Below, piece by piece: positions 10,027 through 20,265 of a DNA stretch of 20,265 nucleotides. This DNA comes from a virus. The stretch spans positions 1-20,265 of IMG/VR virus record IMGVR_UViG_3300032087_000027; one strand, 5' to 3'. How positions within the stretch are numbered: position 1 is the stretch's first letter; every line of letters starts with the position of its first letter. The notes beneath the pieces are model-generated. The model searched no databases. It was not told the origin of the DNA and saw only the letters and a list, made by a program, of their open reading frames with translations. A program made the translations under genes and the position numbers.

Positions 10027-10650
10027 ATGACTTTTTTGGAGCTTTGTCAGCGTCTTGTCAGAGAGACAGGTATTGCAGATACCGGCCCATCATCAACAGT
10101 CGGTCAGACTGGCGATATGCGGCGCATTGTTGATTGGACTAACGACGGCTGGCTAAAGATCCAGTCTATGCGGAAAGACTGGGCGTGGATGTGGGCCACT
10201 GGCTCCTCCACGCTCACCGCAAACACCTACCTAGTAACGCTCCCTTCTACCGTAGAAGATATTGAGCGAGTGTCTCTGGGTGAGAATTTTTTGCAGAAGC
10301 TAACTTACGACGAGTTTGCAGATGCTTACCGTACCGTTGAAGCAGGCGAGCCTACAGCTTGGGCAATCAGGCCAGACGGTCAGCTTGCATTTAACGCAAA
10401 GCCTAGTGCAGATAAGACAGTTACTTACGAGTATTACAGCGTTCCGGTCTCGATGATCGAAAACTTTGATGCGCCCGGTATGCCCGATCAATACCATATG
10501 CTAATTGTCTACTCGGCTCTTCGCGATTATGCCTTGTTTGACGACGCCTTAGAGCTAGAGAAGAAGGCGCTGATTAACTACGAGATGATGCTTGCCGCTC
10601 TGGAGCGAGATCAGCTACCCAAGATTCACGCGCCGGACTGTCTTGTATGA
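10027..10650 (+). CDS. Head-tail adaptor protein, SU10-adaptor type (207 aa)
   Basis: Adaptors bind beneath the portal ring and provide the docking surface for the tail. The N-terminal helical part has LCQRLVRETGIADTGP, then GDMRRIVDWTNDGWLKIQSM (about 29-48) and the Trp-rich RKDWAWMWATGSSTLTA (about 49-65), the pattern of phage adaptors of the SU10 type. A beta-rich insertion follows, with TYLVTLPSTVEDIERVSL and EPTAWAIRPDGQLAFNAKP. The C-terminal helices (YHMLIVYSALRDYALFDDA to the ALINYEMMLAAL segment) complete the usual layout and length. The gene overlaps the next by ATGA, so translation of adaptor and nozzle is probably coupled. The Shine-Dalgarno is weak; the start sits just after the previous stop. 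Confidence 0.82.
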   Translation: MTFLELCQRLVRETGIADTGPSSTVGQTGDMRRIVDWTNDGWLKIQSMRKDWAWMWATGSSTLTANTYLVTLPSTVEDIERVSLGENFLQKLTYDEFADAYRTVEAGEPTAWAIRPDGQLAFNAKPSADKTVTYEYYSVPVSMIENFDAPGMPDQYHMLIVYSALRDYALFDDALELEKKALINYEMMLAALERDQLPKIHAPDCLV

Positions 10651-12131
10651 TTACACCCAGTTACTTCCCGCTAATTGGAGGATGGAACATTGAAGCTCCA
10701 CCGCTTGCTACTCAGCCGGGTGAAGTCCTTGATGCTACTAATTATGAGTGTCTTATTGGTGGCGGCTATCGTCGTATTTACGGCTATGATTTATATGATG
10801 GGCAGGCTACTGCTTCTCAGTCAGTACCCGGCACGGGCTCTGTCTTGCTTGTTCACATTTACAAGAACGAGCTTTACGCGATTCGCGAAGATGGTGCCGC
10901 CGCTCGACTATACAAGGCCACCACCTCCGGCTGGTCAGAGGTTAATAACGCCTTTACGTGGTCGCTCGGCGGAAACTATAGAGCCGTCAACTACAACTTC
11001 TTCGGGCAAGACGCTCAAGAAGAAATGTATATCGTTAATGGCGTTGATAAGGCAGTCCGTTTTGATGGGACTACACTTACCCAAATAACGACCGGCGTAG
11101 GTACTGACGACCCTTCCTGCGTTGCTGGATACCGAACACAGTTATTCTTGGGTGTGGAGTCTAGTCTGGTTGCAAGCGAGCCCGGCAACCCCTCTGGATA
11201 CGACCCCGTTCAGAACGCCTTTGAGGTCGCTGTAGGAGACACAATCACGGACCTTATGGCGGCACCAAGCGCATTGATTGTTGGCTCTGAGAACAAGACA
11301 CAGCTCCTTTCAGGGGATACAAGCGCTAATTTCCGCTTGGATACGATGACAGAGATCGGCCCTTACCCAAGGACGATGGCAAACATCGGTGGTCAGGTAA
11401 TTGGCCTAGATCAGCAGGGTGTTATGAGCCTTACTGCAACTCAAGCATACGGCAACTTCTCGTATGCGCTTTTGAGCCAGAAGATTGCTTCATATATGAG
11501 CAACTTCCCGTTAGGTTCTTTGGCAGTAATTAGTCGTGCGTCTAGCCAATATCGACTGTATAATGGCCGTCAGGGGCTCTACTTTACCTTCGCGGGGACC
11601 GAGCTAATCGGCGCTATGCGAGTGGCCTATGCTCACTCCGTAGAGTGCGCTTGCGAAGGCTTATTTCCCAACAACGAGCCTGTTTCATTTTTCGGATCTG
11701 ATGATGGCAATGTCTACCAGCTAGAGGTAGGCACGAACTTTGCTGGCCAAGAGATTTACGCTTACCTCGTAACCAGCTTTCACCATCACGGATCTCCATC
11801 GCAATACAAGCGATTCCGCATGATCCAGCCAGACCTATCTGTAGATGGGGACTCAACAACGCTGGCTGTTAGCGGCACCACCGATTACGGCAAGGGACTG
11901 TACTCAAGAGGCAATACTGGCTCTCTAGGGCAGACCAATGGTGCGCTATGGGATTTTGCGGTATGGGATCAGTTTTACTGGGACTCTGTGTATCACCACG
12001 ACGCCAGAGTCCGCCTGAGTCTAGTAGGAAAGAACCTTGCAATTCTTATGAGTTCAACGTCCGCCACAGACTCTGTTCACACGCTCTATGGCGTTACGGT
12101 GCATTTTTCTCCAAGGAGACTCGCTAGATGA
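10647..12131 (+). CDS. Probable tail nozzle / beta-propeller structural protein (494 aa)
   Basis: The protein opens PLIGGWNIEAPPLATQPGEV, then LDATNYECLIGGGYRRIYGY (about 28-47). This 'all-start, annotated Gly-Tyr' opening is found in podovirus proteins placed immediately after the adaptor. Repeated short beta segments, such as LLVHIYKNELYAIREDGAAA, EMYIVNGVDKAVRFDG, YRTQLFLGVESSLVASEPGN and FFGSDDGNVYQLEVG, look like propeller blades. Nozzle proteins of T7 gp12 and SU10 type contain propellers. It would form the lower tail tube. No membrane or signal segment is visible. Its stop overlaps the fibre start (ATGA). Structural role is well supported; the precise nozzle label is inference from position and pattern. 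Confidence 0.7.
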   Translation: MITPSYFPLIGGWNIEAPPLATQPGEVLDATNYECLIGGGYRRIYGYDLYDGQATASQSVPGTGSVLLVHIYKNELYAIREDGAAARLYKATTSGWSEVNNAFTWSLGGNYRAVNYNFFGQDAQEEMYIVNGVDKAVRFDGTTLTQITTGVGTDDPSCVAGYRTQLFLGVESSLVASEPGNPSGYDPVQNAFEVAVGDTITDLMAAPSALIVGSENKTQLLSGDTSANFRLDTMTEIGPYPRTMANIGGQVIGLDQQGVMSLTATQAYGNFSYALLSQKIASYMSNFPLGSLAVISRASSQYRLYNGRQGLYFTFAGTELIGAMRVAYAHSVECACEGLFPNNEPVSFFGSDDGNVYQLEVGTNFAGQEIYAYLVTSFHHHGSPSQYKRFRMIQPDLSVDGDSTTLAVSGTTDYGKGLYSRGNTGSLGQTNGALWDFAVWDQFYWDSVYHHDARVRLSLVGKNLAILMSSTSATDSVHTLYGVTVHFSPRRLAR

Positions 12132-16351: not shown

Positions 16352-16678
16352 ATGTATTACGTTCCAAAACAAGGCTATTGGAATATTCAAGATTCAGACG
16401 GCAATACCGTTAACAGGATAAATGGCAGTGAAGAGTTTGTAGCTCAAAACTACGATCATTATGAGTGGGTGGAGATTCCAGTAGATCCAGAGCCTTTTGC
16501 TAGGAGCTGGAGAGACGAAGAGCTGGCCAAGACGGACGATTTTGCGAAGCTCCCAGACTACCCGCATCACGCTATTTTATTAGAGTACAGACAGGCTTTA
16601 AGAGACTGGCCAAGCACTGTAGACTTCCCTGATACCTTACCGGAATCATTGGAGTCCCGTATTGAAAACGCCTCTTAA
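16352..16678 (+). CDS. Tail-assembly chaperone-like protein (108 aa)
   Basis: AAGGGG lies 12-17 bases upstream, and the gene starts four bases after the Gly-rich stop. The N-terminal half (MYYVPKQGYWNIQDSDGNTV) is a small beta-like domain. The C-terminal half has SWRDEELAKTDDFAKLPDYP, then HAILLEYRQALRDWPSTVDF (about 72-91) and PDTLPES. The 'WR..EL..TD, YRQALRDWP' pattern is that of the phage tail assembly chaperone family near fibre genes (Pfam Phage_tail_APC). It may assist folding or attachment of the fibre or Gly-rich protein. It overlaps the next gene by 17 bases. The family match is good; the client protein is unknown. Confidence 0.75.
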   Translation: MYYVPKQGYWNIQDSDGNTVNRINGSEEFVAQNYDHYEWVEIPVDPEPFARSWRDEELAKTDDFAKLPDYPHHAILLEYRQALRDWPSTVDFPDTLPESLESRIENAS

Positions 16679-17246
16679 TACACCTGATTTTATTCTGCAT
16701 AAAGAGTCCGCATATTCTGAGGAATACTGCGCTAAAGTCATAGAGCAATTTGAAAAGGCTCAGTCCGTTGGCAACGTCATAGACAGGCAGGCTAACGGAG
16801 AGGGATACAAGCTAAGAAAAGACGACTTAGCTTACTATCCATTTAAGGAAACTGAAGCTGAAGCGTTAGATGTTGTCGCTGATTTCAACCAAGTATTTTG
16901 GGGTGAGGTTTACTCTGAATACTCGGGGAAGTGGCAGATACTAAACGACTTTGACAAGCACCATATCTGGCATCACAAGGTCCAGAAGACGGAGCCTACT
17001 GAGGGCTACCACGTCTGGCATACAGAGAATATGAATCGGCAGTCGGCCAACAGGGTGTTGACTTATATTCTCTACCTTAACGATGTCGAGGATGGTGGAG
17101 AGACAGAGTTCTTGTACTACTCGAAAAGGTTTAAGCCAAAGGCGGGAGACATCCTACTTTGGCCAGCAGGGTTTACACACACGCACAGAGGCAATCCACC
17201 TCTGAGCAACACTAAATACATCATGACTGGATGGGTCGAATTTTGA
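16662..17246 (+). CDS. 2OG-Fe(II) oxygenase, prolyl-hydroxylase-like (194 aa)
   Basis: This family uses 2-oxoglutarate, O2 and Fe(II) to hydroxylate proteins or small molecules. The iron site is visible: HTE at 120-122, with the distal His at 175 (FTHTHRGNPP) and Lys185 ten residues later for 2-oxoglutarate. The core YLNDVEDGGETEF (138-150) and FKPKAGDILLWPAGFTH (157-173) are classic. The first acidic ligand is Glu rather than the more usual Asp. The start is TTG, with GGAG seven bases upstream (16651-16654); the first internal Met is residue 124, too late to give a working enzyme, so TTG is well supported. It lies in the tail-fibre operon. Substrate is unknown; virion or host protein is possible. 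Confidence 0.88.
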   Translation: MKTPLNTPDFILHKESAYSEEYCAKVIEQFEKAQSVGNVIDRQANGEGYKLRKDDLAYYPFKETEAEALDVVADFNQVFWGEVYSEYSGKWQILNDFDKHHIWHHKVQKTEPTEGYHVWHTENMNRQSANRVLTYILYLNDVEDGGETEFLYYSKRFKPKAGDILLWPAGFTHTHRGNPPLSNTKYIMTGWVEF

Positions 17247-17339: not shown

Positions 17340-19865
17340 ATGGCGATCCACTATCAACAGCCAAATTTGGAGGAGTTCGATAATCGATCCCGACAAAATC
17401 AAACAGGCTTACTACAACGATCTCCGGCAATTGCCTTTGGCACTGGAGGCGATGCGGCCCCAGCTCCAAGTGGTATGCCAAGCCCCGCAAAGCCTATGGG
17501 CGCTACTGTTAATCAGCAAGCAAATGCGGCGCAGATGTCAAATATGGCGGCTAAGCCCGGATCAACGCCTGTAGCGACAGCGCAAACTACTCAGGCAAGG
17601 TCTCAGGGCTATGACCCAGCTCAGATTGGCGATGCTACTCAGGCGCAGGTTCAGGAGGCTGAAGCAGTTACTCGCGCAGTACAGAACAATGAGCTATCTC
17701 AGCAACAGCTAGAGAATATGCTTGCCTCTAACTCTCCCTTGATGCGCCGTGCGGCGGCTCAGGGATTGCAGGTAGCGGCATCACGAGGTCTCCTAAACTC
17801 CAGTATGGCGGCAGGCGCGGCACAGGCGGCATTGATTGATGCGGCGGCACCTTTTGCGCTTCAGGACGCTCGCACATTCTCCGACACTGCGGCACAGAAC
17901 CAGCAGGCCCAGAATCAGGTTAATCTGGCTAACGCTCAGATGGGCACTGAGACTAACATCTTTAACGCTGGCCAGCAGAACGAGAACCAGCGTATTGATG
18001 CGTCATCACAGAATCGCGCTAGTGAGTTTGGTGCAGACGCTAGAAACCAAGCCTCATTGTTTAACGCAGGCGAAGCAAACCAGACATCTCGCTTCAACGC
18101 TGATTCTCGTAATCAGGCGACTCAGGCAGATGCAGATCGCTCTCAGGCTCGATTCCTTCAGGATGACTCTCAAGAGTTTGAATCTGGTGAGAGACAGCTT
18201 GATCGAGATGAGCGCTCAACTGATCGCGATTTTGACGCCGAACAGCGACAGCTTGATCGCGACTTTACCTCTAGTGAGTCAGCACTTGATCGTAACTTCC
18301 AGTCTACCGAAAGGGCGGCTGATAGAGAGCTTACTCGAAGCGAGAGCGCACTGGACCGAATGTCTGCGGCAGAGCTTCAGGATCAACGCATCCAGACTGA
18401 GCTACAGATTCAGGACATTCAAAACAACTTCCAAGGAACCCAAGCAGAGCTGGATCGCTTACAGCAGTTAGAGGTTCAGAAGAACGACATTGACGCAAGG
18501 CTTGAGCTTCAGGAAAACGAGCAAGATTTTCAGTCTACAGAGCGCCAAGCGGATAGAGACTTCCAGTCAAGTGAATCTGCATTGGATCGACTCTCAACTC
18601 AAGAACTTCAAGACGCTCGCATTGCCAATGAGCGCGAGATGCAGGACATCCAGAACAACTTCACTGGAGAGCAGTCACAGCTCGATCGTCTGCAACAGCT
18701 TGAGGTACAGCAGAACGATATTGATGCGCGTCTTGAGATTGAGCGAGAGCGCCAAGAGTTCCAGTCAGGCGAGAACCAAGCAGACCGTGATTTCCAGTCT
18801 AGCGAGCGAGCCCTTGATCGAGATCAGGAGCGCGGCCTATTAGAGACTGAGCTTGACTTCCGTGGCACTCAGGCAGAGCTTGACCGTATGTCTGCCGCAG
18901 AGTTGCAGGATGCCCGTCTCGCTAATGATCGAGAAATGCAGGAAATCCAGAACAACTTCCAAGGAACTCAGGCGGAGCTTGATCGGATTCAACAGCTTGA
19001 GATGCAGAACAACGACATCAACGCTCGTATTTCACTGCAAGAAAGCGACCAGAGCTTCCGCGCAGACCAGAGCGCACTTGATCGTGAGCAACAGCGCGGA
19101 CTCCTTGAAACAGAGCTTGACTTCAGAGCAGGCGAATCTCAAGCGGATAGAGAGTTCCGGTCTCAAGAAGCACAAGAAGATCGTGACTTCCGGGGCGATC
19201 AGGCTCAGCGAGATCGTGACGCGCAGGCTGAATACCAGAGCATACAGAACACGTTTGCGGCGGCGGAAGCACAGCTTAACCGCGATGCCTCTGCGGAGGC
19301 TCAGGCTTCAGCGCAGGCGTTCTCCGAATGGCAACAAACAAACCAGCAAGAATGGTCGGCCATTCAAGCTGATCTTGATCGTCAGTTCCAAAGAGAAAAC
19401 ATTGACCAGCAGTCTGCAACGATGATCTTGGGTCAGACAATGACCTCTATCGGCGCGATCTACGCAGATCCAAACCTAACGCCACAGCAGAAGGCTCAGG
19501 CCGTTGCGAACCTTCAGAACCTTGCGACATCAATGCCTGAGCTTCTGGCTAGAATCCAAGATCCTGATTACGACGTTGTTAATCCCCTGCCTATTGACGA
19601 CGGAAACGACGACGGCGGAAACGACGACGGCGGCAATGATGATGGCGGTAATGATGATGGCGGCAATGATGATGGCGGAAACGACGACGGTGGTAATGAT
19701 GATGGTGGCGATGATGAGCAGACTTGGACGCCTCCTTCTAATTACGTTGATTATGGAAACGGCAACTACCTAGACCCAGAAACTGGCGACATCTACAACA
19801 GTGACGGCGAGGTTATAACCACGATTCCTACTGACGACCTTCCTGACATTCCGAATCTTCCGTAG
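17340..19865 (+). CDS. Large repeat-rich virion-type protein with 11-residue periodicity (841 aa)
   Basis: GGAGACT precedes the ATG. Residues 1-110 are Ala/Gln/Pro-rich. Residues 131-185 contain the RGLLNSSMA motif (149-157) and AALIDAAAPFALQDARTF, a conserved N-terminal pattern I recognise in uncharacterised marine phage proteins of likely virion role. From residue 304 to about 655 the sequence follows an exact 11-residue period (QLDRDFTSSES, ALDRNFQSTER and so on). A looser 11-residue pattern (F208, I219, F230, F241, F252) lies upstream. Within it a 60-residue block recurs at 336, 413 and 512. The segment 656-750 is helical and non-repetitive. An acidic DDGGN tract (753-792) and a short Asp/Tyr-rich end close it. 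A long helical rod or ejected internal protein is plausible; no enzymatic motif is seen. Confidence 0.65.
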   Translation: MAIHYQQPNLEEFDNRSRQNQTGLLQRSPAIAFGTGGDAAPAPSGMPSPAKPMGATVNQQANAAQMSNMAAKPGSTPVATAQTTQARSQGYDPAQIGDATQAQVQEAEAVTRAVQNNELSQQQLENMLASNSPLMRRAAAQGLQVAASRGLLNSSMAAGAAQAALIDAAAPFALQDARTFSDTAAQNQQAQNQVNLANAQMGTETNIFNAGQQNENQRIDASSQNRASEFGADARNQASLFNAGEANQTSRFNADSRNQATQADADRSQARFLQDDSQEFESGERQLDRDERSTDRDFDAEQRQLDRDFTSSESALDRNFQSTERAADRELTRSESALDRMSAAELQDQRIQTELQIQDIQNNFQGTQAELDRLQQLEVQKNDIDARLELQENEQDFQSTERQADRDFQSSESALDRLSTQELQDARIANEREMQDIQNNFTGEQSQLDRLQQLEVQQNDIDARLEIERERQEFQSGENQADRDFQSSERALDRDQERGLLETELDFRGTQAELDRMSAAELQDARLANDREMQEIQNNFQGTQAELDRIQQLEMQNNDINARISLQESDQSFRADQSALDREQQRGLLETELDFRAGESQADREFRSQEAQEDRDFRGDQAQRDRDAQAEYQSIQNTFAAAEAQLNRDASAEAQASAQAFSEWQQTNQQEWSAIQADLDRQFQRENIDQQSATMILGQTMTSIGAIYADPNLTPQQKAQAVANLQNLATSMPELLARIQDPDYDVVNPLPIDDGNDDGGNDDGGNDDGGNDDGGNDDGGNDDGGNDDGGDDEQTWTPPSNYVDYGNGNYLDPETGDIYNSDGEVITTIPTDDLPDIPNLP
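18249..19304 (+). repeat. 33-bp periodic region (32 diverged units) encoding hendecad repeats
   Basis: Residues 304-655 can be written as 32 consecutive 11-residue units with no insertion or deletion. Position 2 is often Leu/Ala/Ile and positions 3-4 often Asp-Arg. LDR or ADR occurs at residues 305, 316, 327, 338, 371, 404, 415, 448, 481, 492, 514, 547, 580 and 602, always in register. Three 60-residue super-units begin at 336, 413 and 512, that is 77 and 99 residues apart, both multiples of 11. DNA copies are well diverged. Confidence 0.9.
19605..19709 (+). repeat. Seven 15-bp units encoding NDDGG
   Basis: Seven in-frame 15-base units encode Asn-Asp-Asp-Gly-Gly. Units 1, 2 and 6 use AAC GAC GAC and units 3, 4, 5 and 7 use AAT GAT GAT, so the three codons change together. 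Gly codons vary separately. The tract is a strongly acidic flexible linker (within residues 753-792) and a candidate for length variation by slippage. Confidence 0.93.
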
Positions 19866-20265
19866 TGATTAGACCAGCTACTCTTTCAGATATAGCGGCA
19901 ATCGCTGATATTGCTATTGAATCGGTTTCAATAGATCCGCTTCCCGTTCGCGTTGATCCTGATTCGATCAAGGACACGATCAGGGAGGCGGTATCTAGCA
20001 ATCAACACTTTGTCTGGGTGTCTGAGATCGACGGGAAGGTTGTTGCGGCTGTAGGCGCTATGAGCGAGAGATCGTTTTGGTATGAGCGCCAGCAGTGTTC
20101 GGTTATGTTGTACTACACAAGGGTGCCGGGTGAGGGCATCAAATTACTTCGTGAGCTTGGCAGATGGATCAAGTCCAGACCAGTCATCAAGGTGGCTGTA
20201 ATGGAGCTTGAGCCTAACGCTGATCCTCGTCTTATTAAATTTTTAGGGCGCATAGGCTTTTCGCG
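19865..20265 (+). CDS. GNAT-family N-acetyltransferase (partial, 133 residues seen)
   Basis: A GTG that shares its first base with the preceding TAG opens a frame to the window end with no stop. The start MIRPATLSDIAAIADIAIES is the standard GNAT opening (beta1-alpha1). FVWVSEIDGKVVAAVGAM (about 49-66) fits beta2-beta3. The acetyl-CoA pyrophosphate loop RVPGEG (86-91) matches the RxxGxG signature, followed by helix IKLLRELGRWIK. VAVMELEPNADPRLIKFLGR (110-129) and IGF fit the beta5-alpha4 region with the usual Asn. Only the last few residues seem missing. The substrate is unknown. The coupled start ties it to the 841-aa gene; no separate Shine-Dalgarno is evident. Confidence 0.8.
   Translation, partial: MIRPATLSDIAAIADIAIESVSIDPLPVRVDPDSIKDTIREAVSSNQHFVWVSEIDGKVVAAVGAMSERSFWYERQQCSVMLYYTRVPGEGIKLLRELGRWIKSRPVIKVAVMELEPNADPRLIKFLGRIGFS

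Follow-up and report, generated by a model that had tools for sequence, protein, structure and literature searches.

Judged from its sequence, the 841-aa protein encoded in this IMG/VR viral fragment (the whole stretch analyzed, 20,265 nt, is called the window here) belongs to an undescribed and widespread protein family in which a conserved RGLxxSS...ALPIAxQDA domain is followed by a rod of 11-residue (hendecad) repeats. Based on gene context and rod composition, we hypothesize that it is, on balance, probably a packaged ejection (pilot) protein of a podovirus related to HMO-2011 and SU10, and that its hendecad helices may pack side by side in a conduit. The ORF spans positions 17340-19865 on the plus strand, and its parts and the next gene are as follows.

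17340..19865, +: whole gene for the 841-aa hendecad-rod protein (ORF); identical copy in contigs L001 and L002, 83% identity in L003 and 75% in L004
17340..17651, +: N-terminal variable linker, residues 1-104; pLDDT about 30, seven indels relative to L003 in residues 1-67
17652..17870, +: conserved RGLxxSS...ALPIAxQDA domain, residues 105-177, the family signature (alignments A1 and A7)
17961..18125, +: five N-terminal hendecads (FNA..N..), residues 208-262, seen in the sequence; their phase differs from that of the main rod
18198..18251, +: 7-residue step from LDRD287 to TDRD294, then 11 residues to LDRD305, seen in the sequence immediately N-terminal of the strict tract
18249..19304, +: main hendecad rod, 32 units, residues 304-655 (autocorrelation, hydrophobicity power, and moment phase)
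19305..19403, +: hendecad register carried on, residues 656-688 (sequence and phase)
19407..19559, +: C-terminal helices, residues 690-740 (AlphaFold, pLDDT 70-85)
19596..19717, +: acidic NDDGG pentapeptide repeats, copy number differing among relatives (alignments and Tandem Repeats Finder)
19865..20263, +: GNAT-type acetyltransferase, the next gene of the module, cut at the window end (phrog_1249, E 6.6e-13; the Y3 counterpart matches Pfam Acetyltransf_1)

The hendecad rod and its family

An earlier reading of the sequence alone (the sequence-only reading) had described 32 units of 11 residues without an indel over residues 304-655, and these mapped exactly onto positions 18249-19304. Identity autocorrelation over residues 285-690 rose above shuffles solely at multiples of 11 (0.22 at offset 11, 0.24 at 33, and 0.31 at both 77 and 99; the threshold of 0.17 is the 99th-percentile maximum over all offsets in shuffles). 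Hydrophobicity power reached 9.9 at 3/11, a value equalled by none of 5,000 shuffles, compared with 0.6 at 2/7 and 0.3 at 1/3.6. Between residue 257 and about residue 718, the hydrophobic moment at 3/11 kept its direction (about 330-78 degrees), so that the phase of the hydrophobic stripe persists on both sides of the tract first reported, with the register itself continuing to about residue 688. Hydrophobic residues occur at positions 2, 6, and 10 of the unit, with some at position 8, rather than about two per unit at positions 2 and 6 as had been proposed, and this arrangement matches the 3-4-4 core of a true hendecad coiled coil. With 11 residues per three turns, such a pattern would pack chains or segments into a nearly straight coiled coil.

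The rod contains no Cys and carries a net charge of -44 over 352 residues. A likeness to LEA-type or membrane-surface 11-mer helices had also been suggested, in which case the tract would be disordered or a single helix. The moderate hydrophobicity of the 11-residue units and the low AlphaFold confidence would suit such a protein, but Lys makes up only 0.3% of the rod and Pro is absent, which does not fit a Lys-rich amphipathic helix; the 3-4-4 stripe is coherent over >400 residues; and the rods admit no indels, whereas disordered tracts do. We therefore regard this explanation as very improbable.

Pfam, PHROGs, NCBIfam, and PDB gave no match for the rod protein, and tblastn searches of isolated phages with the whole protein and with its N-terminal part returned nothing significant; relatives were located through synteny and profiles. 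Counterparts identified by synteny in Y3 (519 aa), HMO-2011 (gp25), and CRP-1 (gp35) all contain the domain and helical repeats, and alignment scans of the candidate set picked out 146 and 583 relatives. Five domain residues (R46, G47, L48, S51, and A70) are invariant across 34 diverse members, and the window protein has both the domain and a period-11 rod C-terminal to it. The family occurs in marine podoviruses (HMO-2011, CRP, HTVC, Y3, and phiM6), in hundreds of viral contigs, and in bacterial genomes, the latter with 34 family loci. Of 36 isolate records linked by their portal, 29 carry a rod protein, which is almost always labeled hypothetical; HMO-2011 gp25, CRP-1 gp35, HTVC115P gp47, phiM6 ORF25, and the Y3 519-aa protein are all annotated in this way. 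These five share the domain, rod, and gene module of the window protein but differ from it in rod length and composition. HMO-2011-type phages are reported to be prevalent marine podoviruses, and the rod family is a concrete candidate for the means by which their DNA crosses the envelope.

Among periods 5-19, period 11 scored highest in most homologs, and short members often had no clear sequence period. The longest rods, in a Marinobacterium genome (L017:5920-8964) and a prophage-type contig (L187), hold about 68 hendecads, or roughly 750 residues, in register. Rods have a median of 31% Q+N+R, compared with 9-17% in the other proteins encoded by the window's virion genes, and 95% of 166 rods are net negative. 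Packaging by DNA binding is therefore unlikely, and the proposal of an internal DNA-associated protein is disfavored.

Register and quantized length

Homologs of the HMO-2011 type carry two anchors flanking the rod, RGL and a WRRxI.TA motif, and we measured the distance from RGL to W. This distance was 8 mod 11 in 104/105 homologs. It fell into nine classes (118, 140, 162, 173, 184, 250, 272, 338, and 360 residues), which are not independent trials, as the homologs are kin. The control distances, from the start to RGL (78 different values) and from W to the C terminus (38 values), were uniform mod 11. The single exception, phiM6 (L177:13724-15460), has a distance of 172 (7 mod 11), one short of 173. 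Selection of homologs for alignments A1 and A3 drew partly on hendecad sequence; the mod-11 anchor test does not depend on it directly. That nine classes share one residue class while two controls are uniform is hard to explain otherwise than by a constraint on the rod. We also considered length steps of multiples of 22, an idea dropped once added homologs gave 173 and 184.

Indels show the same confinement. Relative to reference L073, linkers accumulated 354 indels in 17,315 aligned residues (20 per 1000), whereas the conserved domain and the 232-residue rod had none among about 70 true homologs; 18 apparent rod indels were traced to two wrong ORFs (L123 and L157) and removed. The window protein aligns with L003, its 83% identical relative, without an indel over residues 67-749, and differs from L004 within the rod only by -11 and a net +44. 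Rod length thus changed by multiples of 11, with a further 7-residue step at greater distance, where L012 differs from the window protein by 24x11+7. Such a step, also present just N-terminal of the strict tract, would appear to be tolerated between distant members too; 7 residues make two turns and nearly keep the helix phase.

Because linkers take up 20 indels per 1000 aligned residues and rods take up none, the strict register is under selection. Selection on 11/3 helix geometry had been proposed from the sequence, with free off-register variation in homologs named as the contrary outcome; the HMO-type lengths step by 11 instead, which bears the proposal out. We suggest that rod length would evolve by whole hendecads only, because any other change would break the helix phase.

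The register could also be a mere by-product of duplication of a DNA repeat unit, with no selection on geometry. The larger repeated blocks noted earlier, 77 and 99 residues apart, were confirmed (67% and 62% of residues shared), as expected if the tract was built by duplication. However, the synonymous sites of these blocks are saturated (pS 0.71-0.81), neighboring units have only 37% of bases in common, and Tandem Repeats Finder detected no DNA array in the rod, its sole report being the NDDGG repeat. The frequent linker indels, moreover, end at the domain and rod. We consider this by-product explanation the least credible of those weighed here. Given the saturated synonymous sites and the lack of a DNA array, the rod repeats are old; duplication built the tract long ago, and its register has been preserved ever since. 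The NDDGG array (19596-19717) is, unlike the rod, a DNA-level tandem repeat with varying copy number.

With the same anchors and nine rod-length classes from 118 to 360 residues, the family offers a clean natural experiment, and a hendecad helix that keeps its register strictly for hundreds of residues bears on the design of coiled coils and helical barrels.

Gene module and the ejection reading

Pfam SU10 models recognize both the portal and the adaptor of the window, and relatives of the portal are found in HMO-2011-type, CRP, HTVC, Rhizobium, Vibrio, and Aeromonas podoviruses. The longer contigs L001 and L002, which hold the identical rod gene, extend the order downstream: GNAT, a basic then Ala/Gly-rich protein with a weak tape-measure match (phrog_1272), a short acidic protein, a 226-aa protein, and a 2701-aa giant. 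The order conserved across the family is rod gene, short acidic protein, helical protein, and giant protein, with the GNAT and basic/Ala-Gly-rich genes interposed in the window clade. We scored the 128 loci whose downstream sequence was long enough; in 120 of them, one of the seven genes after the rod gene, most often the third or fifth, is a giant ORF, defined as at least 600 aa long or extending past the contig end. The giant protein carries Pfam LPD38 (E 2.7e-33) and shows similarity to the virion RNA polymerase (vRNAP) family in that family's N-terminal region (E 1.6e-17). The 2701-aa giant (L175:6288-14393) has a HEGTHG metallopeptidase-like motif in addition to LPD38 and is likely an injected polyvalent protein of its phage. 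The 226-aa protein (L002:12502-13182), four genes downstream of the rod gene, has short hendecads of its own (FQTSER/FQTTER/FQSQEN) like those of the 841-aa protein, and the two might co-assemble.

A case has been made that phages package and inject their polyvalent proteins (PMC5512222). The vRNAP of N4/DEV is itself ejected, and the DEV tunnel and pore proteins are encoded beside this giant (PMC10925440). Since the rod gene belongs to a conserved module ending in a giant polyvalent/vRNAP-like protein, and thus sits beside a giant that is probably injected, we read it as encoding an ejection protein. This context agrees with the virion-type or ejected protein proposed from the sequence; we infer its location in the virion and think its ejection likely. 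A literature search found no published virion proteomics or mutant for any family member.

The shaft of a fibre was another option raised earlier, namely, a trimeric coiled coil in a tail fibre or appendage. The gene does come after tail-fibre and fibre-assembly genes, and coiled-coil shafts are common in fibres, but it heads the polyvalent/giant-protein module rather than a fibre module. In addition, no receptor-binding or fibre domain is present, the conserved domain being N-terminal and most members stopping soon after the rod, and Q/N/R are unusually abundant in the rods. A fibre shaft is therefore improbable.

For the ejection protein, we propose that copies would exit the head before the DNA via the portal and tail, and that their Q/N/R-rich hendecad helices would come together within the envelope to form part of the channel, on the model of the phiX174 H helices and their tube. 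Oligomerization and lining of a channel by the rods are possible but somewhat doubtful. More tentatively still, and rather unlikely as a whole, the family could represent a major, so far undescribed kind of DNA-delivery device used by abundant marine podoviruses, namely, a one-protein hendecad tube far longer than phiX174 H and tuned in 1.65-nm steps. Several observations count against the ejection reading: the low AlphaFold confidence and the breaks in the rod, and the strongly acidic character of the window rod, which is unexpected for a DNA-touching surface. Further, within a single phage group the longest rods are about three times as long as the shortest, and L017 has about 68 hendecads, so that rod length does not obviously track envelope width.

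Predicted structure and known delivery systems

AlphaFold2, run on the window protein as a monomer with 12 family members, predicted helix nearly throughout residues 155-740, with a mean pLDDT of 57.7 and a pTM of 0.23. Breaks were predicted at residues 332-341, 416-419, 517-518, and 597-602. An HMO-type prediction from a 71-sequence alignment was similar (pLDDT 57.4, pTM 0.24), and a Foldseek search with the low-confidence model gave no match at E <= 0.001. Helix in the rod is thus supported by modeling. The roughly 53-nm straight rod once envisaged is retained in its helical character but not as one straight rod, given the low confidence and the four breaks.

These breaks bear on a further alternative, an internal head or core protein whose tract is folded into hairpin bundles round the portal, like the T7/N4 core before ejection, and never forms a long rod or tube. 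The breaks at 332-341, 416-419, and 517-518 coincide with MSAAEL/LSTQEL capping-box sequences, which recur at offsets 77 and 99, and the differing rod lengths would not suit one envelope width. However, the breaks sit in low-confidence segments, and AlphaFold has been reported to yield spuriously bent coiled-coil models (PMC11676326); the rod of L017, with about 68 units, lacks these motifs altogether. We judge hairpin bundles unlikely.

The closest parallel to a conduit of hendecad helices is the phiX174 H tube (PDB 4JPP; PMC7354561), also a Q/N/R-rich helical coiled coil with 11/3 hendecads that serves phage DNA delivery, a role the rod protein would share. The first three units of the H tube are hendecads, and 18/23 of its inward positions are N/Q/R (PMC7354561). 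H continues in heptads and belongs to an ssDNA microvirus, whereas the window rod has 32 or more uninterrupted hendecads in a dsDNA podovirus, and a PDB sequence search gave no match to H. SU10 (a Kuravirus) has five ejected proteins, gp20-24 (PMC9509320), and shares with the window a related portal and adaptor, the genome position, and an order in which small proteins precede a large one; unlike the rod protein, gp20-24 have no clear period 11. Homology to SU10 gp21/gp22, considered because of a shared GxxxSS motif, was rejected (hhalign probability 0.9%, E 0.062, not significant). The N4/DEV ejectosome proteins gp71-gp73 are likewise encoded beside a giant, to whose vRNAP family the giant here matches in its N-terminal region. 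The available part of that report (PMC10925440) describes no hendecad rod in these periplasmic tunnel proteins, and the rod protein has no PHROG or PDB match.

Two other genes of the window deserve mention. The 494-aa protein at 10647-12131 is an amidase by PHROG name, and its Y3 counterpart is called a stabilization protein; it directly follows the SU10-type adaptor in the gene order, a place that points to a tail nozzle or stabilization protein instead. Between the tail-fibre assembly and ejection genes lies a 2OG-Fe(II) oxygenase (16662-17246; phrog_61, Pfam 2OG-FeII_Oxy_3).
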